Shown piece by piece: positions 6,104-57,378 of a stretch of DNA of 59,700 nt. This stretch comes from Chloroflexota bacterium (GTDB lineage: Bacteria > Chloroflexota > Anaerolineae > DUEN01): positions 1-59,700 of the forward strand of contig JAADGJ010000111.1 of assembly GCA_013152435.1 (NCBI GenBank), in the 5' to 3' direction. The notes beneath the pieces were generated by a model that searched no databases, was not told where the DNA came from, and saw nothing but the letters and a program-made list of their open reading frames with translations. The position numbers and the translations under genes are program-made. Position 1 is the stretch's first letter; every line of letters begins with the position of its first letter.

Positions 6104-6123
6104 GAGGGGCGCAGCCCCTCAAA
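6104..6123. repeat. Short hairpin repeat with GGGGC-nnn-GCCCC core
   Basis: The arms TTGAGGGGC and GCCCCTCAA are fully complementary around a 3-base loop. The hairpin lies in the 5' leader of the GH4 gene. Similar small hairpins occur near 16890 and 59598, which suggests a REP-like dispersed family. Confidence 0.5.
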
Positions 6124-6200
6124 GCCTCCCCGCCGTATTTCCACGCGAAAAGCATCCGCTGCCGCAGTAGAGACGCTGACTTTGCAGTTCTTTTGGTGAT

Positions 6201-6229
6201 ATAGTAGCCCAGGTTGACGGGAATATCAA
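6201..6229 (-). promoter_or_regulatory. Promoter for the GH4 gene (TTGATA-N17-TACTAT)
   Basis: Reading the minus strand, TTGATA (6229-6224) and TACTAT (6206-6201) are 17 bp apart, the ideal sigma-70 spacing. The start codon is about 160 bp downstream, leaving a leader that contains the 6104 hairpin. Confidence 0.5.
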
Positions 6230-6290
6230 GGAGCCCTGCGTGGAATACACGGATGAGTGAGGGGTCCCTTGGGCGCCTGTGCCGGGTCTG

Positions 6291-6319
6291 TTGACAGATC
6301 GCCGCCGCCGATCTAGGAT
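6291..6319 (+). promoter_or_regulatory. Promoter for the GH3 gene at 6393 (TTGACA-N17-TAGGAT)
   Basis: A perfect -35 box, 17-bp spacing and a good -10 box stand 74 bp before the GTG at 6393. Upstream in-frame start codons would lie before this promoter, so it supports the shorter start. Confidence 0.6.
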
Positions 6320-6392
6320 AGGTTCCGTCCGGGGGATGGCGGATCGGACGGCCGATCGGTCGCAAGTGATAGCCCGAAAGGAGCGGTGGTCC

Positions 6393-8444
6393 GTGAACAG
6401 GAACGAGATAGCCAACCGACTGGCGGAATATGATCGGCGGGCGGGGGAGCTTGTCGCCCGGATGAGCCTGGAAGAAAAGGTGGACCTGATGGGCGGGAGG
6501 AGGAGCCTGCTGAGCATACAGCTCCGGGACGGCGGGCGCTACAACAAGGTCCCCTATCCGGCTGGCGGCAATGAGCGTCTGGGGATCCCTCCCCTGCTGT
6601 TCTGTGACGGCCCTCGCGGGATGGTCCCCAATCACGGGACGTGTTTCCCGGTCTCCATGCAACGGGGCGCCAGTTTTGACGTGGAGTTGGAGGAGCGCGT
6701 CGGCGAGGCCATCGCCAAAGAGATCCGGGCGGTGGGTGGCAACTATTTCGGCGGCGTCTGCATCAATCTGTTGCGGCATCCGGCGGGCGGCCGGGCGCAG
6801 GAGACGTACGGGGAGGATCCGTTCCATGTGGGGCAGATGGGGGCGGCGCTGGTCCGGGGCGTGCAGAAGCACAACGTGATGGCGTGCGTCAAGCATTACG
6901 CCCTTAACAATCAGGAGACCACCCGGTTTAAGGTCGATGTCACCTGCGACGAGCGCACGCTGCGGGAGGTGTATCTTCCGCACTTCAAAGAGTGCCTGGA
7001 CGCCGGGGCGGCCAGCGTGATGGGGGCCTACAACAAGTTCCGGGGCGTGCACTGCTGCCATAACGCCTACCTGCTCCGGACGATCCTGAAGGAGGAGTGG
7101 GGCTTTTATGGGTTCGTGATCAGCGATTTCTTCTGGGGCGTGCGGGACACGGTGGAGGCGGCCAACGCCGGATGTGACGTCGAGATGGCGCACACGAAGT
7201 ACTACGGGAAGAGGCTGGTGCGGGCCGTCAGGCGGGGCGACGTCCTCGAGGCCGTGATCGCCGAGGCGGCGCGACGGATCGTGCGGACGATCTTGATGTT
7301 CACCGAGGCAGCCGATCCTCTGGGCGATTATCCGGAGTCGCTGCCCGCCTGTGAGGAGCACATCCGGCTGGCCCTAGAAGTCGCTGAGAAGTCGATCGTC
7401 CTCCTCAAGAATGAGGCGGGCACGCTGCCGTTCGACAGGGATCGGGTGAAGAGGGTGGCGTTGTTGGGCCGGTTGGGCGATTTCGCCAACATCGGTGATC
7501 ACGGCTCCAGCCGGGTGTTCCCGCCCTATGTGGTGACCCCGCTGGAGGGGTTGCGGAAGGTACTAGGGCCCTCCGTCGAGATTTTGTATGGCGAGGGTAA
7601 GGATCTGGAGGAGGCCCGGCGGATCGCGTCGAGGGCGGATGCGGTCGTGTTCGTCGTGGGCTATGACCATCGGGATGAGGGGGAGTACGTGGAGTTCCTG
7701 GGCGGCCTGATCAAGGTCGGAGGGGACCGAGACGATTTGCGGCTGCACAAAGGGGATGTGGATCTGATCCGGGCCGTGGCGCCAGCGAATTCGAACGCTG
7801 CCGTCGTGCTGATCGGCGGAAGCGCCATCGTGGTGGAGGAGTGGAGGGATCAGGTGCCGGCGATCCTGCATGCCTTCTATCCGGGCATGGAAGGGGGCAC
7901 GGCGATTGCCAGGGTCCTCTTCGGCGAGGTGAATCCGGGCGGGAAGCTGCCCTTTACGATCCCCGCCGATCCGGCTCATCTCCCCGAGTTCGACAAGTAC
8001 GCCACTCGCGTGGAATACGATCTCTATCACGGGTACACCAAGCTGGAGCGGGAAGGGCATGTCCCGGCCTTTCCCTTCGGCTTCGGGCTCTCCTACACGA
8101 CCTTCCGCCAGACGAATGCCTCCTTCGAGGTGGACGGCGATCAGGTGGTGGCCTCCGTGGACGTGACGAATATGGGGAAGCGCACCGGGGATCAGGTGGT
8201 GCAATTCTACGTGGGGTTTGAGAACTCCACCGTGGACCGCCCGAAGAAGCTCCTGCGGGGTTTCCAGCGGGTGACGCTGCAGCCGGGGGAGACGAAGAGG
8301 GTGCTGATCTCCTGTCCCATCGAGCGGTTGCGCTGGTACAATCCGGAGACCTCCTCTTGGGAGTTGGAGCGCATGGAGTACCAGGCTTATATCGGCTTCA
8401 GCAGCGATGAAAAGGACCTGCTGAGGGGCGCTTTCTCTCTTTGA
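6393..8444 (+). CDS. Family 3 glycoside hydrolase (beta-glycosidase)
   Basis: This is a 683-residue protein. An N-terminal TIM barrel contains KHYALNNQE and FVISDFFWG, where Asp245 is the expected nucleophile. An alpha/beta sandwich follows (VALLGRLGDFANIGDHGSS, FVVGYDHRDEGEYVE), then a C-terminal fibronectin type III-like domain (VDVTNMGKRTGDQVVQFYV). GH3 enzymes release terminal beta-linked glucose, xylose or arabinose. The order of domains and the HYALNNQE motif are those of fungal- and Clostridium-type beta-glucosidases. The GTG at 6393 has AAAGGAG 9 bp upstream and lies 74 bp after a strong promoter. No signal peptide is seen, so it probably acts on imported oligosaccharides in the cytoplasm. 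It is monocistronic; the next gene is on the other strand. Confidence 0.88.
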   Translation: MNRNEIANRLAEYDRRAGELVARMSLEEKVDLMGGRRSLLSIQLRDGGRYNKVPYPAGGNERLGIPPLLFCDGPRGMVPNHGTCFPVSMQRGASFDVELEERVGEAIAKEIRAVGGNYFGGVCINLLRHPAGGRAQETYGEDPFHVGQMGAALVRGVQKHNVMACVKHYALNNQETTRFKVDVTCDERTLREVYLPHFKECLDAGAASVMGAYNKFRGVHCCHNAYLLRTILKEEWGFYGFVISDFFWGVRDTVEAANAGCDVEMAHTKYYGKRLVRAVRRGDVLEAVIAEAARRIVRTILMFTEAADPLGDYPESLPACEEHIRLALEVAEKSIVLLKNEAGTLPFDRDRVKRVALLGRLGDFANIGDHGSSRVFPPYVVTPLEGLRKVLGPSVEILYGEGKDLEEARRIASRADAVVFVVGYDHRDEGEYVEFLGGLIKVGGDRDDLRLHKGDVDLIRAVAPANSNAAVVLIGGSAIVVEEWRDQVPAILHAFYPGMEGGTAIARVLFGEVNPGGKLPFTIPADPAHLPEFDKYATRVEYDLYHGYTKLEREGHVPAFPFGFGLSYTTFRQTNASFEVDGDQVVASVDVTNMGKRTGDQVVQFYVGFENSTVDRPKKLLRGFQRVTLQPGETKRVLISCPIERLRWYNPETSSWELERMEYQAYIGFSSDEKDLLRGAFSL

Positions 8445-8506
8445 CGAGGGGCAATGGGGGATGAAGCATCGCTTCGTCCTTCGCAGCGTTTCCCAGCCCT
8501 CTTCCC

Positions 8507-8640
8507 GTGAGTGCCCATATATACGGCTTCTTTTGTGGCGTAACCCTATATCTTGATGTGGGTGGCGGAGGGCGCTGCCTTCCGCCACCCGAAAAGCCAA
8601 ACTGGAGGGAGGCTTCGTCCCCTCCAGAAAAGGCCTTTCT
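8507..8640. repeat. Second copy of the fold-back element core, with added hairpin
   Basis: About 100 bases starting GAGTGCCCATATATACGGC align with 4528-4629. The central hairpin is GGGTGGCGGAGGGC, loop GCT, then its complement, against GGGTAGCGAAGGGC in the first copy. Two base pairs have changed on both sides, so pairing is kept. A second hairpin (CTGGAGGG and its partner, 8612-8637) follows. It sits between the GH3 and GH31 gene ends. Confidence 0.55.
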
Positions 8641-8684
8641 CCCGCCTGGCCTCGGCCCAGTTCCTTGTGGAGATCGAATAGAGG

Positions 8685-11600
8685 TCAGGTGGAAGCGGGC
8701 CGTGACGCGTACCGCAGATCGCTCACCGGCGTGCCGGCCTCGTCCACGAAACGGAAGTAGAAGCCGAACATGCGACCGGAGAACTCCTCCTGCGGGCCGC
8801 GCGTGGCCTTAACCAACACCTCGTTCCACCCGGCGCGCAGCGTGACCGGCGCCCGCAATGGCTCGATCACCCGTATGCCGTCCGCTGCGAATACGAGCTC
8901 CCCATTGCACCACAGCTTCAGCTGCTCCTCGCCGGACAGCTCCGCCCACACGGTCCGCTCGTCCGGGGACCACACGGCGCAGGCCGCGTAGGCCACCGCA
9001 TCGCGAATCGGTTGGGGAAGCCCGTCCTTCTTGGTCGACAGCAGATGCGTGAAGTTCACATATCCGAAGCTGTCCAGCACCTCGTGCTCCCGCCATCGCA
9101 TCCGGCCGTCCCGGCCTTCCATAGTCGCCTGGGGATCGACGCCGTGCTCCGGCGGGTACGCCGTTTCGAAGCCTTGTCCCCCGTTGGGGAAGGGCCCTGC
9201 GGTCAACCACGGGCTGGCGTAGGCATGAGTGAGCAGCGCCGTGCTTTGCAGCGTGTGCGTTGCGCCGCCCACCGAGGCCTCCGCTGTGACCTCGACCTCC
9301 GGGCTACACACCGTCGGCTCCTGAGTCCGCTCCAACGCCCACCACGCATCGGCGATGCCTCCGCTCCCGGCGGCGCTCTGTCCCTCACCCGTCGGAGACG
9401 CTCGCCATCCGGGGGGCGGCGTCAACGAGAACCGGGCCGTCAGATCGGGATTGCCCCAGGGATTCCGCACGTAGGCTCGCACCAGCAGGTGGCCCGGCTT
9501 GGCGCCCAGCGAGACCTCCACGCCTAGCTCGGGCGTCCGCACTGGCGCCTCCCGGGGTGTCCCCCCCGGCGTGATGATGACCTGAATCGGCGCTCGCACG
9601 GGGTGCTTGCCCAGGTGCACGGTCAGCAGCCGCCCAGCCGGATCGTAAACCCACCCTTCGCCCTCGGCCAGCGGCTCGCCGTTCACCTGCACCTCGGCCG
9701 GGGGATCGCTGTCGTGCAGGATCACGTGCCAGATCCGGGCGTTGGGCATGCCCTGGAACTCCCCTTCCGATGCGGCGATGGCGATCTCCGGCTTCTCCCC
9801 CTCACGGTACGTGATCCGTGTCCTGGCGTACTCGCCGCGTTCGTATGCATAGGTGTCGCCGTCATCCTCGTACAGATCGAACGTGGCGTCGCCGCCGGGG
9901 TAGACGTGCAAAGTGACCTCGTCTAGCGGACGCTGGTCGGCGAAGAGGACCTCGGGGCCCATGGGGATCAGGCTGCCGCCTCGCACGAACAGCGGCAGCG
10001 TGTCCAACGGCGCCTCCGCCTCGATCGTGCGGCCGCCCTCCCAGCGTCGCTCCGTCCAGAAGTCGTACCAGGTCCCGTCGGGCAGGTAGACCTCCCGGCG
10101 TCGGGCGCGCGGCTCCACCACGGGCGCGACCAGGAAGGCGGGGCCGAACATGAACTGATGTTCCGCCGCCACCGCGGCGGGGTCGTCTCCGAAGTCCAGG
10201 ACCATGGCTCGCATAAACGGCCGTCCCGTCTCGTGCGTCCGGCGAGCGCAGGCGTAGATGTACGGCAGGAGTCGGTAGCGCAACCGCATGTAGCGGGCGC
10301 AGATCGCCTCTACCTGCGGGCCGAAGGTCCAGGGCTCGTTGCCGGGCCGCGTGCCGTGGGTGCGGAAGATGGGGCAGAAGGCGCCCCACTGATACCAGCG
10401 GGCGTACAGCTCGCCGCCGAAGGAGGGCGTGAGGAAGAACCCGCCGATGTCGGTGGTCCAATACGGCTGGCCGGAGAGGCACACCTCCTGGCCGACGATC
10501 ACCTGATCGCGCAGCACATCCCAGTCGGCGTTGATGTCGCCTGACCACATGAGCGTGCCATATCGGGGGATCCCGGCCCAGGCCGTCCGGGCCAGCGCGC
10601 ACACGCGCAGATCGCTCTCCTGTCGCTGGTGCTCGTACAGGCCCCTGGACCAGAGGAGCGAGTAGATGTTGTGGACCCGCTCGCGAGGGCCCAGGAAGTG
10701 CTGAACGCCCTCGCTGTGTTTCTCCACCTCCCCCATGTCGGTCCAGTAGGCGCGTATCCCCTGGCGCCAGAGAGGGCGGACATGGGCCCACCACGCGGCT
10801 CGAGCCTGGGGATGGGTGTGATCGAACACAGCTCGGGGATCGGAGTCGATGTCCACCAGGAACCCTCGGCGATGGAACTCTTGGAAGGTGAGCGCCTGCC
10901 GGTCGATGAAGGGGTGCTGCGCCTGCATGACCCGGAAGCCCATCTCCCGCAGCGTCTGCAACATGGCGGCCGGGTCCGGCCAGTCGGCCGCGTCCCAGGC
11001 CAGATCCCCGAACCGCTTGAACCAATGCCAGTCGATGACCAGGACGTCGCATGGCAGGTTGCGATCCCGGTATCCCCGGGCGATGTGCATCAGTTCCTCG
11101 GCGCTGCGATAGCGATTCTTGCACTGGATCAGCCCCAGCGCCCAGCGCGGCGGCAGTTCCGGCTGGCCAGTGAGTTGGGTGTAGCTCTCCAGGATGCGAT
11201 CGGGGGCTGGCCCGTAGATGAGGAAGAGGTCCAGCTCGCCGTCGTCCAGCAGGATGGTGAGGCGTTCCGGGTGCTCCTCCCCGGAGGGCTGGGCGTGCGG
11301 CCAGGGGGGCGGGGCCCAATCCGGTCGCATGGGTGCCGGCATCGTCTTCCCCTCGGCGATCACCCAGCGGGATGGCCAGGAGGAGTTGAGGAAAAGACCG
11401 TATCCGGCGGTGGTGAACGCCAGTGGGATGCCGCCGTTGCCGCTATGCCGCCCGGCGTCCCACTCCTGCCACATGCGGCGCTCGCGGCCGCGCAGGTTGA
11501 GCTGCGAGAGGGCTCCCTGGCCCAGGCCGTAGACGCCCACACCCTTTGGGAGCGTCACCCGACACACCCTTCGGCTGCCTTCCCACTCGATGCCGGGCGC

Positions 11601-51165: not shown

Positions 51166-51474
51166 CGTCGTCCTCCTCTACCTGTCCACGAAAATTTCGG
51201 GCAAGACATGGCCCCACCCTGGCCAGATGCTCGGCGAGCCGGTGGGGCCTGTCGGTTATGCGATTTGCCCATGTGGGAGACCGGTCTCCTCTCGGCCGAT
51301 GCCCACGAGCGCCTACTGTACCCTTGTTTGCCCATTCCGTGTGTAAGCGATCCTACAATTTAGGCGAGATCTCCTATTCCTTGCACTTGTATGAAAGGAT
51401 GCGTTTAGGCATTGGCGTGGCGTCAAAATGATGCTACAATGAAAGGGCCTATTCTTCTCGGAGGCGATGGTCAG
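51166..51474. other. 309-bp spacer with promoter for the resB operon
   Basis: The only clear element on the plus strand is the promoter at 51412-51440. The small 66-residue gene starts divergently at the left end. No further gene is seen. Confidence 0.5.
51412..51440 (+). promoter_or_regulatory. Promoter for resB (TTGGCG-N17-TACAAT)
   Basis: The boxes at 51412-51417 and 51435-51440 are 17 bp apart. Transcription would begin near 51447, just before GGAGG and the GTG at 51475, so the earlier ATG at 51439 cannot be the start. Confidence 0.5.
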
Positions 51475-52560
51475 GTGGCACATCGTATCTTTCGTCGCGC
51501 ATGGTATTTTCTGGCCCGCATGGACGTGGCCGTCGTCCTGATCCTGGTCGTTGTTCTGCTGGCGATTGTGGGATCTTGCTTCCCACAGCTCCCTCCCAAG
51601 ACGGCCGCGGATCCAGATCTGCGGGCTCAGTGGGAGACCGTGACGCGCTCTCGATACGGCGCCTGGGCGAATCTGCTGAGTGCGATCGGCGTCTTCCGCT
51701 TTTTCCGGTCCCCTCCCTTCCTGATTGCTTCCGGCCTGTTGCTTCTGGCCACGCTGGTGTGCACACTTCAGCGCTGGCCGGGGATCTGGCGTCAGGTCTC
51801 CCGTTGGTCCATCCGGGGCTCCGATGCCATTTTCCGGTCGGCCCCCTTCCGTGCCCAGTGGTGGGTGGCTCCAGATGCGTTGCTGCCTGATCCGATCCAT
51901 GAGCTCTTATGGAAACACGGGTTTCGTGTATCGGTGGAGATGATGGGCGATGGCGTCTATCTGCGGGGAGATCGCAATCAGTGGACGCCTTTGGCGACCG
52001 TGGTCACCCATCTGGCGGTGTGGGTGTTGTTGCTGGGGGTGGTGATCAGCGGGGCGCTTGGCTGGCGTGAGGAAGTGGTTGTGCGTCCCGGTGATGTGGT
52101 GACGTTGAAGCACCATCGGGATCTGGCCGTGCGCCAGGAGGGCTTTGAATTCGTGCGCTATCCGGACGGCAGCCCCGCCGATTACGAGGCCCGGATCGCC
52201 TTGTTGGAGCGGACGCGTGTGGTGAACGAGGGCTCGGTGCGGGTGAACCATCCGCTGAAATATGAAGGGATCCGTTTTTACCTACATGGCTATGCGGGGC
52301 AGGGAGGGGCTTACCTGGTGGCTTTGCAGGCCGTGTATGATCCCGGCTATCCGGTGATCGTCGTTGGGGGGATCCTCTTGTTGATCGGCATGATGGTGAG
52401 TTTCTATTTCCCGCATAGCTGCGTCTGGGTTCGGATGGGGCGAGACGGGGAGCTTCGCATAGCGGGCAGGGCGGGGCGATATGCTTACGCCTTCGACCGG
52501 GAGTTCGCGACCCTGGTGAGAGCTCTCCGGGCGAGGCTTGGCGTGGAGGGCGTGGAGTGA
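51475..52560 (+). CDS. resB: Cytochrome c biogenesis protein ResB (Ccs1)
   Basis: This is a 361-residue protein. Three or four membrane helices frame a large outer domain, as in ResB/Ccs1. Features are FLARMDVAVVLILVVVLLAIVGSCFPQLP at the N-terminus, HLAVWVLLLGVVISGALGW, and a late helix VIVVGGILLLIGMMVSFYFPHSCVWVRM typical of the family. With ResC it handles heme delivery to apocytochrome c outside the membrane (system II). The GTG at 51475 has GGAGG ten bases upstream. It is shorter than Bacillus ResB (about 540). The next gene starts within its stop codon. Confidence 0.88.
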   Translation: MAHRIFRRAWYFLARMDVAVVLILVVVLLAIVGSCFPQLPPKTAADPDLRAQWETVTRSRYGAWANLLSAIGVFRFFRSPPFLIASGLLLLATLVCTLQRWPGIWRQVSRWSIRGSDAIFRSAPFRAQWWVAPDALLPDPIHELLWKHGFRVSVEMMGDGVYLRGDRNQWTPLATVVTHLAVWVLLLGVVISGALGWREEVVVRPGDVVTLKHHRDLAVRQEGFEFVRYPDGSPADYEARIALLERTRVVNEGSVRVNHPLKYEGIRFYLHGYAGQGGAYLVALQAVYDPGYPVIVVGGILLLIGMMVSFYFPHSCVWVRMGRDGELRIAGRAGRYAYAFDREFATLVRALRARLGVEGVE

Positions 52561-52997
52561 CCACGCGCTTTCAGCTTTCCGCGGGTGGTGTGGTCTGTCG
52601 TCGCTCTCCCGAGGGCGAGATCGAGGTGGCCCTCATCGCTACGAAGGGAGGGGAGCGATGGGGACTGCCGAAAGGGCTGGTCGAGAAGGGGGAATCGCTG
52701 GAGGAGACGGCCCTGCGCGAGGTGCGGGAGGAGACGGGGCTGGAGGCCGAGATCGTCGATCGGTTGGAGCCCATCGAGTATTGGTACTGGTGGGAGGAGG
52801 AAGGGGAGAAGGTCTGCTATCATAAAAAGGTGTACTTCTTCCTGATGTGCCACCGTGGCGGGGATGTGTCCCGACATGACTTTGAGGTCGATGACGTGCG
52901 GTGGTTTCCCATCGACGAGGCGATTGAGCGGGCCTCGCACAGGACGGAACGGCAGGTACTGCGTCAGGTGAAGGATCGAGGAAAGTTGCCGTGTTGA
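52557..52997 (+). CDS. Nudix hydrolase
   Basis: This 146-residue protein has a complete Nudix box, G40-x5-E46-x7-R54-E-V-R-E-E-T-G-L. The motif RWGLPKGLVEKGESLEETALREVREETGL resembles Ap4A or (di)nucleotide-polyphosphate pyrophosphatases. It hydrolyses a nucleoside diphosphate linked to another group. The GTG start overlaps the resB stop (GTGA), and its end overlaps the resC start by seven bases. The gene is thus embedded in the resB-resC operon, which is unusual; the functional link is unknown. Confidence 0.9.
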   Translation: MTTRFQLSAGGVVCRRSPEGEIEVALIATKGGERWGLPKGLVEKGESLEETALREVREETGLEAEIVDRLEPIEYWYWWEEEGEKVCYHKKVYFFLMCHRGGDVSRHDFEVDDVRWFPIDEAIERASHRTERQVLRQVKDRGKLPC

Positions 52998-53797
52998 TCG
53001 GTTTTGCCTATGTGGCACTGTGGGCCGCGGTGATGATGTACTTCGTGTACCTCAGGAGGGGATGGGAGTGGGCAGGGCAGACGGCAACCGGGTTGTCGCT
53101 TGTCCTGTTGGGGCTGCTGGCGGCCGCCCTGGTATCCCGTGGGATGGCGGCCGGACGCTGGCCCCTGGTCAACCATTATGAGGTCTCGCTCCTGTTCACG
53201 TGGATGATCGTGGCCGCTTATCTGCTTTTGGAGGCCTCCTGGCGTGAGCGGCGGGCTGGCGCTTTCGTGTTGCCGATCGCCCTGGCGATGGCCACGTATG
53301 CCGTGACCCGCCCTGCCGCCGATCAGGCGATCGCGCCGCTGCCCCCGGCGTTGCGCTCCCCCTGGTTCCAGGTGCACGTGCTCAGCGCCATGATCGGGTA
53401 CGGGACCTGTGGCGTGGCGGCGGGGTTGGGGGTCATGTGGTGGGTGCAGCGAGCACCGGGAGATGGGGACCAGGAGAGCTTCGCCGACACGGTGGAGCGC
53501 ATGATGGTCCGGGCCGTGGTCTGGGGATTCCCCTGGCTGACGCTGGGCATCCTGGCGGGGGTGATCTGGGCGCAGGACGCCTGGGGGCGCTATTGGGGAT
53601 GGGATCCTAAGGAGACGTGGGCCCTGATCACGTGGCTGTGGTATCTCTTGATCCTGCACGCGCAGGCGCTCCGGGGATGGCGCGGCCGCAGAATGGCCGG
53701 CCTGGCGATCGTCGGCTTGGGGATCGTGCTGTTTACCTTCGTTGGGGTGCCCTGGCTGGTGCGCGTGGTGCGTCTGGAGAGTTTGCACACCCCTTGA
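52991..53797 (+). CDS. resC: Cytochrome c assembly protein ResC (CcsB/CcsA)
   Basis: This 268-residue membrane protein of the heme-handling family has the tryptophan-rich WWD segment WAQDAWGRYWGWDPKETWALITWLWYL (about 195-220). His residues in NHYEVSLLF and QVHVLSAMIGYGTCG are the expected axial ligands for heme. It has about eight helices. The GTG at 52991 follows GAGGAAAG and overlaps the Nudix stop. With ResB it attaches heme to CXXCH proteins; it implies that c-type cytochromes exist. Confidence 0.92.
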   Translation: MLIGFAYVALWAAVMMYFVYLRRGWEWAGQTATGLSLVLLGLLAAALVSRGMAAGRWPLVNHYEVSLLFTWMIVAAYLLLEASWRERRAGAFVLPIALAMATYAVTRPAADQAIAPLPPALRSPWFQVHVLSAMIGYGTCGVAAGLGVMWWVQRAPGDGDQESFADTVERMMVRAVVWGFPWLTLGILAGVIWAQDAWGRYWGWDPKETWALITWLWYLLILHAQALRGWRGRRMAGLAIVGLGIVLFTFVGVPWLVRVVRLESLHTP

Positions 53798-54019: not shown

Positions 54020-55330
54020 ATGGCGATGAAGAGAGTGTCCCGACGCCGGTTTTTGCTCAAGTTAGGGGCATTGGGGGGCATTGGCCTCGGCATGGCAGCG
54101 GGCTTCATCGATCATCGCTGGTGGGAACGCCGTGTGAGCGGAGCTACCGTCCGGCCGACCCCCTCCCCTCCCTCGCGTTGGGCCATCGAGGCGCGTCACT
54201 ACACCTCCTTCGTGGGTGAGGGGACCCTGAACTGTTCGGCCTGTCATAAGGAGACGGGGGAGTCGCTGGAGGTCTCCTACTGTCACACGCCGCACTCGGG
54301 CACATACGTGCGGTGCGACCTTTGCCCGCATCAGTGCGTCATCGCCGACGGCAGGCGGGGGCGCTGTCGGGTGCGGGAGAATCGGGGTGGCCGGTTGTAC
54401 TCCATGGTCTACGGCAACCCCTGTGCCGTGCATGTCGACCCCATCGAGAAGAAGCCGTTCTTCCACTTCCTGCCTCGCGCACCTGCCTTCTCCCTGGCCA
54501 CAGCTGGTTGTAACCTGCGGTGCCTCTATTGCCAGAACTGGACGATCTCTCAGGTCCCTCCGGAGGAGACGCAGAACATCGATCTCTCGCCGGAGGACGT
54601 GGTGCACTTCGCGAAGCGCGATGGCGCGCCGGTCATCGCCTATACGTATTCCGAGCCGGTCGTCTTCTATGAGTACATGTTAGAGACAGCGCGACGCGCC
54701 CGGGAGGCGGGGCTGCGGAACGTGGTGATCTCCGCCGGCTTCATCGCCACGGAGCCATTGCGAGAGCTGTGCGCTGCGGTAGACGCCATCAAGATCGATC
54801 TGAAGGGCTATGATGAAACCTTCTATCGGAAGGTGTGCAGCGCTGAGCTGGGGCCGGTGCTGGAGGCGATCCGTACCATCTATGAGTCCGGGACGCATCT
54901 GGAGATCGTCAATCTGGTAGTGCCCACGTTGAACGATGATCTGGAACAGCTGCGATCGTTGGCTCGGTGGGTTGTGCGAGAGCTGAGCCCGGATGTTCCC
55001 CTGCACTTCAGCCGGTTTTACCCTCAGTACAAGCTGACGAATCTCCCGCCGACGCCTGTGGAGACGTTGACCCGGGCGCGAGAGATCGCGTTGGAGGAGG
55101 GGGTGCGGTTCGTCTACGTGGGGAACGTGCCGGGCCATCCGGGGAACAACACCTACTGCCCCGGATGCGGCCGCCCCATCATCGTGCGCCAGGGATTCGC
55201 CGTGCTGGAGTACCGCCTGAAAGGGGGCGCTTGCGCCTATTGCGGCGAGTCGATCCCGGGCGTGTGGTGGCCTGGTGAGCCCCCGAGATCCTCGATCATA
55301 CCCATACCTTTGGGGCGCCCCGACTATTGA
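54020..55330 (+). CDS. amrS: AmmeMemoRadiSam-type radical SAM protein with Tat signal and CXXCH motif
   Basis: This is a 436-residue protein. The radical SAM cluster motif is C164-x3-C168-x2-C171 (AGCNLRCLYCQNW). A Cys-rich N-terminal segment (C99, C102, C106, C116 in VRCDLCPHQCVIADGRRGRC) and C-terminal zinc-ribbon-like CPGCG and CAYCG pairs are those of the AmrS/COG1180 group. Unlike typical members, the first 30 residues form a twin-arginine signal: S7-R-R-R-F-L-L-K, then LGALGGIGLGMAAG. Residues 72-76 (CSACH) in the added stretch fit a c-type heme motif. The ATG at 54020 has only a weak GGGGTGA upstream. The Memo-AMMECR1 gene follows after 55 bp. Export of a radical SAM enzyme is surprising and remains an inference. 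Confidence 0.85.
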   Translation: MAMKRVSRRRFLLKLGALGGIGLGMAAGFIDHRWWERRVSGATVRPTPSPPSRWAIEARHYTSFVGEGTLNCSACHKETGESLEVSYCHTPHSGTYVRCDLCPHQCVIADGRRGRCRVRENRGGRLYSMVYGNPCAVHVDPIEKKPFFHFLPRAPAFSLATAGCNLRCLYCQNWTISQVPPEETQNIDLSPEDVVHFAKRDGAPVIAYTYSEPVVFYEYMLETARRAREAGLRNVVISAGFIATEPLRELCAAVDAIKIDLKGYDETFYRKVCSAELGPVLEAIRTIYESGTHLEIVNLVVPTLNDDLEQLRSLARWVVRELSPDVPLHFSRFYPQYKLTNLPPTPVETLTRAREIALEEGVRFVYVGNVPGHPGNNTYCPGCGRPIIVRQGFAVLEYRLKGGACAYCGESIPGVWWPGEPPRSSIIPIPLGRPDY

Positions 55331-55385
55331 GCCGATCCCCGTCCCGTGGTCTTCCAAGATGCGTCCTGTTGGCGAGGTGGCCGAT

Positions 55386-57134
55386 ATGATGTATGCGCTT
55401 CACAGGCTAACGCTCTGGCTTCTGGTGGTGGGGTGTACGCTCTTCTGCTGTGGGTGTGGCCGACCTGAGCCTTCGCCCACGCCGGAGGGGACGGAGGTCG
55501 CGTCGCCCGTCGTGACGACGATCGCCCCGGGAACGCCGGCGAGTGGCAGAATCCGTTCACCCGCTGTGGCTGGGAGCTGGTACCCCGACGACCCGGACGA
55601 GCTCGCCCGGATGATTGATGATATGCTGGCCCCCGTGGAGCCGGTGGATGGCGCTCCCATCGGGCTGATCGTCCCGCACGCAGGCTATGTCTATTCCGGG
55701 CCGGTGGCTGCTTATGGGTTCAAGCAGTTGGAGAACGGGCGATACGATGTCGCCGTGATCATCGCCGCCGATCATCAGGCGCCTGTCTCCGCCCCCATCT
55801 CCGTCTGGGCCGAGGGCGGTTTTGAGACGCCACTGGGGGTTGTGCCGGTGGACGAAAGACTGGCGAAGGCGCTGGTGGAGGCTGATCCGCACATCGTGTT
55901 CGATCCTGCCGCTCACGAGGGGGAGCATCCTATCGAGATCGAGTTGCCCTTCCTGCAGCGGGTCTGCCCGGCCTGCCGTATTGTGCCGATCCTGATGGGG
56001 GCGGATGATGAGGGGACGGTGCGGATCCTGGCCGATGCCCTGCTGCAGGTCCTGCCCGGTACCCGCTCGGTCATCATCGCCAGCTCTGATCTCGCCCATT
56101 ATCCCTCCTACGAGGATGCGATGCGCGTGGATGGGGCCACGCTGGGGGCGATCGAGACGGGGGATCCGGGACGGGTGCGGGAGACCATCCGGGATCTTAT
56201 GGCGTCTCGCGTTCCCAACCTGGTCACCTGTGCCTGTGGCGAGGGGCCGATCCTGGTGACGATGCGCGTCGCGGCCGGCCTGGGGGCGGACACGGTGACC
56301 GTCCTGCGTTATGCGAATTCCGGTGATTCGCCCTACGGGGATCGGGATCAGGTTGTGGGCTATGGCGCCGTGATGCTCTGGCGCTATGAGCCGCCCGATC
56401 TGACGGAGGGGCGGAGGGACGCGCTGTTGGCGATGGCTCGCTCGGCGATTGAGGGGTATCTGCGGACGGGCCGTATTCCCGAGGGGGGAACGGATGACCC
56501 GGTGCTCAATCGCCGGGCGGGCGCTTTCGTGACGTTGAAGAACCACGGCGAGCTGCGGGGGTGCATCGGCCACATCCGGGCGGATACACCGTTGTTTCGG
56601 GTGGTGCAGCGGATGGCGGTGGCGGCGGCCACCCAGGATCCCCGGTTCCCTCCCTTGACCTTGGAGGACCTGAGTGGTGTAGATATTGAGATCTCCGTTC
56701 TCTCCCCCTTGCATCGGGTGACGAGCGTGGACCGAATTCGGGTGGGGGTGGATGGCCTGATGATCGTGAAGGATGGCCATCGGGGGCTGCTCCTGCCGCA
56801 GGTGCCGGTTGAGCAGGGATGGGATCGAGAGGCGTTCCTGGAGGGCTTGTGTCAGAAGGCTCTCCTTCCCAGGGGGTGCTGGAAGGAGGGGGCCAGCCTG
56901 TACACGTTCACGGCGATCGTGTTTGGAGAGAGGGCGAGACGGGGTGAAACCTTCTATATATCGTGGTTGGTGTTGGTTTTTATCGCATATATTGTGTTTC
57001 CACTTTTGAGGTGGAAGGGCGGAGGAGATCCCCTCCGCCCTTTTCTGTCCGATGCGATCGCTTTTGGATATGGAAGGATGGCAGGCTACGTGCGGACGAC
57101 GGAATCCAGCTCCCCATATGGGTTGATCTCGTAA
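55386..57134 (+). CDS. Lipoprotein-like Memo-AMMECR1 fusion (AmmeMemoRadiSam proteins B and A)
   Basis: The open frame gives 582 residues. A hydrophobic signal (about 5-22) ends in cysteines; LVVGC (Cys17) and CCGC (Cys24) are possible lipobox sites, followed by a Pro/Thr linker. The Memo domain (about 58-325) has VPHAGYVYSGPVAAYGF, AHEGEHPIEIELPFLQ, SSDLAHY and a late CACGEGP cysteine, the metal-site positions of Memo/LigB proteins. AMMECR1 (about 340-515) has GAFVTLKNHGELRGCIGHI. The last 60 residues run through an AT-rich stretch and a terminator hairpin and are probably not native; a one-base indel near 56930-56950 would give a stop at about 56952. The ATG at 55386 follows GAGGTGG. Memo and AMMECR1 are usually separate or fused cytoplasmic proteins. 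Confidence 0.85.
   Translation: MMYALHRLTLWLLVVGCTLFCCGCGRPEPSPTPEGTEVASPVVTTIAPGTPASGRIRSPAVAGSWYPDDPDELARMIDDMLAPVEPVDGAPIGLIVPHAGYVYSGPVAAYGFKQLENGRYDVAVIIAADHQAPVSAPISVWAEGGFETPLGVVPVDERLAKALVEADPHIVFDPAAHEGEHPIEIELPFLQRVCPACRIVPILMGADDEGTVRILADALLQVLPGTRSVIIASSDLAHYPSYEDAMRVDGATLGAIETGDPGRVRETIRDLMASRVPNLVTCACGEGPILVTMRVAAGLGADTVTVLRYANSGDSPYGDRDQVVGYGAVMLWRYEPPDLTEGRRDALLAMARSAIEGYLRTGRIPEGGTDDPVLNRRAGAFVTLKNHGELRGCIGHIRADTPLFRVVQRMAVAAATQDPRFPPLTLEDLSGVDIEISVLSPLHRVTSVDRIRVGVDGLMIVKDGHRGLLLPQVPVEQGWDREAFLEGLCQKALLPRGCWKEGASLYTFTAIVFGERARRGETFYISWLVLVFIAYIVFPLLRWKGGGDPLRPFLSDAIAFGYGRMAGYVRTTESSSPYGLIS
57015..57045 (+). terminator. Rho-independent terminator after the Memo-AMMECR1 gene
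   Basis: The arms AAGGGCGGAGG (57015-57025) and CCTCCGCCCTT (57032-57042) pair over 11 bp with a 6-base loop, followed by TTTTC. It lies inside the nominal reading frame of the upstream gene and antisense to the nominal end of the CBM48 gene. Confidence 0.7.
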
Positions 57135-57378
57135 TCATCGGCGTGATCGTCATTGATCCATTGTCGTCCACGATATAGCGAAAGCGGTAGGTCCGACCCG
57201 CTGGTAGATCGATGCTGATGTGCCAATCCTCGTCGTCTCTCGTCTGCTCCAGGAGATGACTGTGGGTGCTCCAGTCGTTGAACTCGCCCGCCAGGGCGAT
57301 GTGGTCCGCCCAGATATGCTGGGAGAGGCGGAAGGTCACCCGCACCATCCCATTGCCCAGATCCTTTTTCTCCAACAT
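57086..57378 (-). pseudogene. CBM48 (isoamylase N-terminal/glycogen-binding) protein gene with a frameshift
   Basis: The N-terminal part starts MLEKKDLGNGMVRVTFRLSQ and contains GEFNDWSTHSHLL and LPAGRTYRFRYIVD. It is a CBM48/AMPK-beta-type glycogen-binding module, with ATG 57378 after GGAGGAGGGA. The expected ending (WINDDHADDYEINPYGELDSVV) is encoded in another frame and stops at 57086. One base appears to be missing within about 57158-57166. Without correction the frame continues to 56980 with an unrelated tail. It follows the tandem stress-protein gene by 30 bp. Whether this is a true mutation or a sequence error cannot be told from the sequence. Confidence 0.75.

Follow-up and report, generated by a model that had tools for sequence, protein, structure and literature searches.

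Memo and AMMECR1 are conserved from archaea to humans. Together with the radical S-adenosylmethionine (SAM) protein AmrS they constitute the AmmeMemoRadiSam system (families TIGR04335, TIGR04336 and TIGR04337). Inside the cell, flavodoxin or ferredoxin is the electron donor, and to our knowledge no radical-SAM enzyme has been shown to work outside the cytoplasm. The open-access literature disclosed no description of an extracytoplasmic radical-SAM enzyme or of exported AmmeMemoRadiSam members; the study of Burroughs (2019, Journal of Biological Chemistry) on Memo-AMMECR1 systems lay outside that scope. We analyzed a DNA stretch of 59,700 nucleotides from a Chloroflexota bacterium of the class Anaerolineae (GenBank assembly GCA_013152435.1, contig JAADGJ010000111.1, positions 1 to 59,700), hereafter called the window, which contains an AmrS gene followed by a gene for a Memo-AMMECR1 fusion. 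The sequence data suggest that this pair is probably an extracytoplasmic version of the system, working at the membrane face and, in this lineage, wired by heme.

AmrS of the window (54020 to 55330, plus strand) comprises 436 amino acids and scored 365.5 bits against TIGR04337 (cut-off 220), while the fusion (55386 to 57134, plus strand) scored 238.8 bits against TIGR04336 (cut-off 26) and 178 bits against TIGR04335 (cut-off 99). All three families were recognized above their curated cut-offs with catalytic and cluster residues kept, and the open reading frames and family identities of the original prediction, which had been made from the sequence alone, were confirmed. The locus differs from the described system in that AmrS carries a twin-arginine translocation (Tat) signal and a CxxCH-containing linker, Memo and AMMECR1 are fused and predicted to be exported, and resB and resC belong to the operon.

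The N-terminus of AmrS, MAMKRVSRRRFLLKLGALGGIGLGMAAGF, shows an RR motif followed by a hydrophobic run; the signal covers residues 1 to 30 (54020 to 54109, plus strand; SRRRFLL plus hydrophobic helix). A comparison of codons 7 to 30 with the AmrS gene of the sister genome G086 (locus L037) revealed 11 identical codons, 12 with synonymous changes only and one with an amino acid change. Since 12 of the 13 changed codons were synonymous, we concluded that this stretch is translated and its signal maintained by selection. A conserved downstream start removing the signal, by which the prediction could have failed, was not found in this comparison. With its conserved RR motif, its hydrophobic run and a Tat translocase encoded in the genome, AmrS has the predicted properties of a Tat substrate; the TatC gene was detected in 18 of 20 genomes with a CxxCH-containing AmrS, among them that of the window. 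Signal classes were assigned by our own rule-based classifier. In a Tat-like scan, 8% of unrelated open reading frames of at least 250 amino acids were positive, many of them visibly membrane proteins.

For the fusion, the ATG at 55386, preceded by GAGGTGG, is better placed as start codon than the GTG at 55275. The resulting N-terminus, MMYALHRLTLWLLVVGCTLFCCGCGRPEPSPTPE (MMYALHRLTLWLLVVGCTLFCCGCGRPEP), contains a signal of the general secretory (Sec)/lipoprotein type within approximately residues 1 to 25, and the claim that both proteins look exported therefore stood. When tested with the lipobox pattern [LVI][ASTVI][GAS]C, the protein of the window gave imperfect sites (VVGC, located early, or FCCGC); orthologues possess the clear lipoboxes LPAC, LSAC, LAAC and LTAC. 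The Memo part extends approximately from 55560 to 56372, the AMMECR1 part from 56430 to 56924. Residues H98, H130 and C284 are conserved and align with H49, H81 and C244, the metal ligands of MEMO1 (PMC11081632). MEMO1 (PDB 7kq8) and the fusion gave a near full-length profile match of 122 bits, but the Memo of the window is fused to AMMECR1 and predicted to be exported.

The original prediction had assumed that members of this system lack signals and had regarded an outside location as a new setting. Inspection of 196 non-redundant AmrS sequences proved the former view wrong and did not support the latter, that of an isolated new setting. The sequences were obtained from the class of the window, a genome_contigs search and a systematic sample of the phylum of locus L107 (Desulfoferrobacter). 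Signals were assigned to 112 of them (86 Tat, 10 probable Tat, 16 Sec-like), the remaining 84 having none. Signal-bearing AmrS occurred in at least 16 named phyla and accounted for about one third (15/41) of the systematic one-phylum sample. Cultured strains with the exported form include Desulfoferrobacter suflitae DRH4 (L107) and Dethiosulfatarculus sandiegensis SPR (L144). In a phylogeny of AmrS core sequences (190 rows), the signal label required 9 changes compared to approximately 61 after shuffling, indicating that exported AmrS is a coherent and widespread subfamily with few transitions.

Both forms may be encoded in one genome. On contig C104 (L072), the genome of the window contains an ordinary three-gene set, in which AmrS has no signal and Memo and AMMECR1 are separate proteins without fusion. 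An ordinary signal-less set is also present in the sister genome G086 (L076), and genomes of family f10 additionally hold separate signal-less Memo and AMMECR1 proteins. Where the start could be read, almost every fused Memo-AMMECR1 protein bore a signal, whereas the unfused ones compared alongside did not; elsewhere, a few unfused Memo proteins bear a signal or an anchor.

The motif CxxCH (CSACH, AmrS residues 72 to 76; 54233 to 54247, plus strand), a candidate attachment site of heme c, lies between the signal and the core of AmrS and is invariant in 20 Anaerolineae sequences. It was found in 26 of the 196 AmrS, all of them belonging to the 112 signal-bearing proteins, more precisely to those with a Tat signal, and in none of the 84 signal-less ones (p = 1e-7). 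In 26/26 cases it was accompanied by a histidine at position -7 relative to the first core cysteine, as compared to 0/84 other signal-bearing and 1/83 signal-less AmrS. In the window this residue is His92 (54293 to 54295, plus strand; core Cys99), a candidate distal heme ligand. The same pair recurs in Acidobacteriota, Calditrichota and Latescibacterota (L130, L132, L153, L156), and the well-supported branches of the tree require the CxxCH label to change at least three times.

Bacterial CcsBA, the System II cytochrome c synthase (ResB/ResC), attaches heme to CXXCH peptides (PMC8112865) by means of an active site located outside the membrane (PMC10663686). Both subunits were recognized in the window next to the signal- and CxxCH-bearing AmrS: resB at 51412 to 52560 (PF05140, 189.6 bits) and resC, encoding the heme-handling membrane protein of the synthase, at 52991 to 53797 (PF01578, 148 bits; TIGR03144, 202.8 bits, cut-off 187.6). 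The predicted order resB-Nudix-resC directly upstream of AmrS was verified, all genes up to the fusion being tightly spaced on the plus strand, and the link is recurrent: in 15/22 non-duplicate loci of the clade (the window and 14/21 others, i.e., L037-039, 043, 045, 047-050, 053, 054, 059, 078 and 079), ResC, usually with ResB, is encoded directly upstream of a CxxCH-containing AmrS. Among the AmrS loci collected, ResC never adjoined an AmrS without this motif. Where this pair is not adjacent, the clade members encode resB, and in several cases resC as well, at other places of the genome, and cytochrome c assembly genes are present in the CxxCH genomes of the three other phyla. Two relatives whose AmrS is devoid of CxxCH were also inspected: G024 (genome 79% complete) yielded neither ResB nor any PF01578 protein, and G059 gave a weak ResB match only, but contains PF01578. 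The presumed substrate differs from that of CcsBA in being a radical-SAM protein instead of a cytochrome, and a Nudix gene separates resB and resC. A CxxCH motif in a protein predicted to be exported thus coincides with a heme attachment system in the same genome, as in c-type cytochromes. The sequences make it probable that AmrS of this clade carries a covalent c-type heme.

The four-cysteine core site of AmrS, C99-C102-C106-C116 (54314 to 54367, plus strand), is invariant in exported and signal-less AmrS, the radical-SAM motif CxxxCxxC (residues 164 to 171; 54509 to 54532, plus strand) in all AmrS classes. C164, C168, C171, E212, D260 and K262, i.e., the motif and SAM-site residues, are invariant or nearly so, and cluster, catalytic and SAM-site residues of exported AmrS are conserved as strongly as those of signal-less AmrS. 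An AlphaFold2 model (mean predicted local distance difference test value, pLDDT, 88.7) had as nearest fold the pyruvate formate-lyase activating enzyme (PDB 3cb8, 8fo0), the top structural match with a template modelling score of 0.80 on the target. Both proteins share CxxxCxxC and the same radical-SAM barrel at 18% identity, but the activating enzyme lacks the N-terminal signal, the four-cysteine site and the C-terminal CxxC pairs of AmrS, whose partner, moreover, does not belong to the known glycyl radical enzymes. Cysteine C251 (54770 to 54772) is invariant in CxxCH-containing AmrS and occurs in about half of the other exported ones; it is not the usual residue in signal-less AmrS.

One polytopic protein is a recurrent neighbour of exported AmrS; its spermidine-synthase domain (PF01564) is flanked by a group of membrane helices on each side. 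Its gene was located near 41/112 signal-bearing but only 3/84 signal-less AmrS. When flanks of 2.5 kb were required, the numbers were 29/70 and 2/42, respectively (p = 2e-5, a statistic that ignores relatedness). Examples are L037 (8502 to 10919) and L039 (7255 to 9468), besides about 40 other loci of many phyla. In the genome of the window the gene is unlinked (contig C82), its product being 71% identical to the L039 protein. The domain that the neighbour carries between its membrane segments is that of the membrane-bound polyamine aminopropyltransferases (PRK03612; fused MFS/spermidine synthase, NF037959). However, the neighbour remained below the curated cut-offs, except that of NF037959 in some members, its helices flank the domain on both sides, and it is linked to exported AmrS. 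In the literature searched, no paper joined 'spermidine synthase' and 'AMMECR1'. This partner and the CxxCH motif are additions to the original prediction. At L065 (G059:C131, 3046 to 7880), three AmrS genes are clustered, all with signal-like N-termini, and a membrane spermidine-synthase-like gene (7995 to 10349) adjoins them.

A possible course of events can be outlined. AmrS would fold and obtain its iron-sulfur cluster or clusters in the cytoplasm; the folded protein is then highly likely to be carried out by the Tat pathway, as predicted from its signal, and would stay on the external side of the membrane. The Memo-AMMECR1 fusion is very probably exported by Sec, presumably as a membrane-anchored lipoprotein, and would work with AmrS there. 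In this lineage ResB/ResC would probably attach heme to Cys72 and Cys75; His76 and His92 are its likely axial ligands. Conceivably, the heme takes over the role of flavodoxin or ferredoxin and supplies the AmrS cluster with electrons drawn from the quinone/cytochrome b pool of the membrane, and the reaction might have its target at the membrane surface and perhaps involve the membrane spermidine-synthase-like protein as well. As to SAM, the enzyme might use, for a single turnover, a molecule already bound prior to export, or might act without cleaving SAM. The complete picture, a radical-SAM enzyme outside the membrane that receives electrons via a c-type heme fitted by the operon-encoded synthase and forms one surface pathway with the lipoprotein Memo-AMMECR1 and the spermidine-synthase-like protein, is put forward tentatively. 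If true, a class of enzyme would work where none was known to work, and the question arises how SAM and low-potential electrons reach the cell exterior. The exported form and its extra partners (heme attachment, spermidine-synthase-like protein) narrow down the possible sites and targets of the trio and provide testable handles.

Several points weigh against an exported, heme-wired enzyme. The main gap is that we know of no source of SAM outside the cytoplasm; furthermore, a c-type heme is usually too oxidizing to drive SAM cleavage directly. Residues 79 to 89 of AmrS were poorly modelled by AlphaFold2 (pLDDT <50). No Pfam cytochrome domain matched the CxxCH stretch of AmrS up to E = 10, so that the protein was not filed as a member of a cytochrome family. 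The associations are shared by descent: a phylogenetically independent test of signal against neighbours had no power because the signal is a clade-level trait, and for CxxCH with His at -7 there are only three independent contrasts, all in agreement but too few for significance. The prediction that signal-bearing AmrS co-occurs with signal-bearing Memo or Memo-AMMECR1 proved right in so far as the Memo adjoining signal-bearing AmrS is predicted to be exported in 41/42 cases (in three cases checked, AmrS without an adjacent Memo had lipoprotein fusions elsewhere in the genome). It did not hold as a distinction, since the Memo next to a signal-less AmrS is likewise predicted to be exported in 11/13 cases (Fisher p = 0.14, not significant). 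Strict co-export was thus not supported; co-export is common, not obligatory. At L103, L108, L145, L146 and L205, AmrS without an N-terminal extension (e.g., MGKTVQC...) adjoins an exported Memo or Memo-AMMECR1, the first four being clean cases in which AmrS starts right at the core. In these cases AmrS may reside in the cytoplasm although its partner is outside; AmrS is consequently not necessarily always external.

These five lineages also fit the view that AmrS is active in the cytoplasm, either prior to its export or without being exported at all, with its N-terminus as an anchor, and modifies Memo-AMMECR1 or a product that is exported later. We regard this as quite improbable, as RRxFL-type Tat signals are conserved in most members of the exported clade, positive charges before the hydrophobic run favour an N-in/C-out topology, and processing of a CxxCH site takes place exclusively outside. 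That the signals are artefacts of mis-called starts is hardly conceivable: although several reading frames extend upstream by chance and alternative GTG/TTG starts exist, the codon comparison with G086 led us to reject this explanation, which the invariant CxxCH downstream of the signal and the recurrence across phyla contradict as well. If AmrS is exported, CxxCH and His92 could instead form a zinc or mononuclear iron site, with the proximity of resB/resC being incidental. Cys88 and His89, invariant in Anaerolineae, would supply ligands enough for such a site, and the lack of a recognized cytochrome domain is consistent with it. However, the members from Acidobacteriota, Calditrichota and Latescibacterota are devoid of Cys88 and keep only CxxCH and His at -7, which favours heme; ResC adjacency is confined to CxxCH-containing AmrS, and a relative without the motif also lacks heme attachment genes. 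A metal site of this kind is therefore judged unlikely. Similarly, there is a rather small chance that exported AmrS is no longer a radical-SAM enzyme and that its clusters and heme serve Memo-AMMECR1 as a sensor or for carrying electrons. Outside the cytoplasm, both SAM and a low-potential reductant would be hard to provide, and a heme next to an iron-sulfur cluster would suit electron transfer, but the undiminished conservation of cluster and SAM-site residues and the match of the model to SAM-bound pyruvate formate-lyase activating enzyme argue for the retention of radical-SAM chemistry.

Some further features of the locus and its relatives were noted. The probable start of resB is the ATG at 51439 (plus strand, read from the sequence), and the promoter scan revealed a promoter-like sequence TTGGCG-17-TACAAT at 51412 to 51440 (plus strand). 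The Nudix hydrolase encoded between resB and resC (52557 to 52997, plus strand; PF00293, 76.4 bits) has no signal, and its gene holds the same place in L039, a member of another family. At L037 (in the sister genome G086) and L039, the fusion gene is followed by a gene for a cytochrome b561-like membrane part fused to a SagB-type nitroreductase (7609 to 8739 and 6119 to 7246, respectively) and then by the spermidine-synthase-like gene. As a general neighbour of AmrS the b561/SagB-like protein was rejected, its occurrence not being general; the genome of the window gave weak partial matches only. Homologues of the Memo-AMMECR1 fusion stop at ...FGEE. The open reading frame of the window is about 55 amino acids longer and crosses a terminator-like hairpin, GGGCGGAGG-AGATCC-CCTCCGCCC-TTTT (57017 to 57044, plus strand), which was read directly from the sequence and is absent from the output of the scan that also searched for promoters. 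The last approximately 55 residues are thus probably not functional, and the functional end should lie near 56955. This read-through tail probably reflects a lost stop codon or an assembly error; within 56955 to 57134, it overlaps a convergent open reading frame on the minus strand (56980 to 57378).

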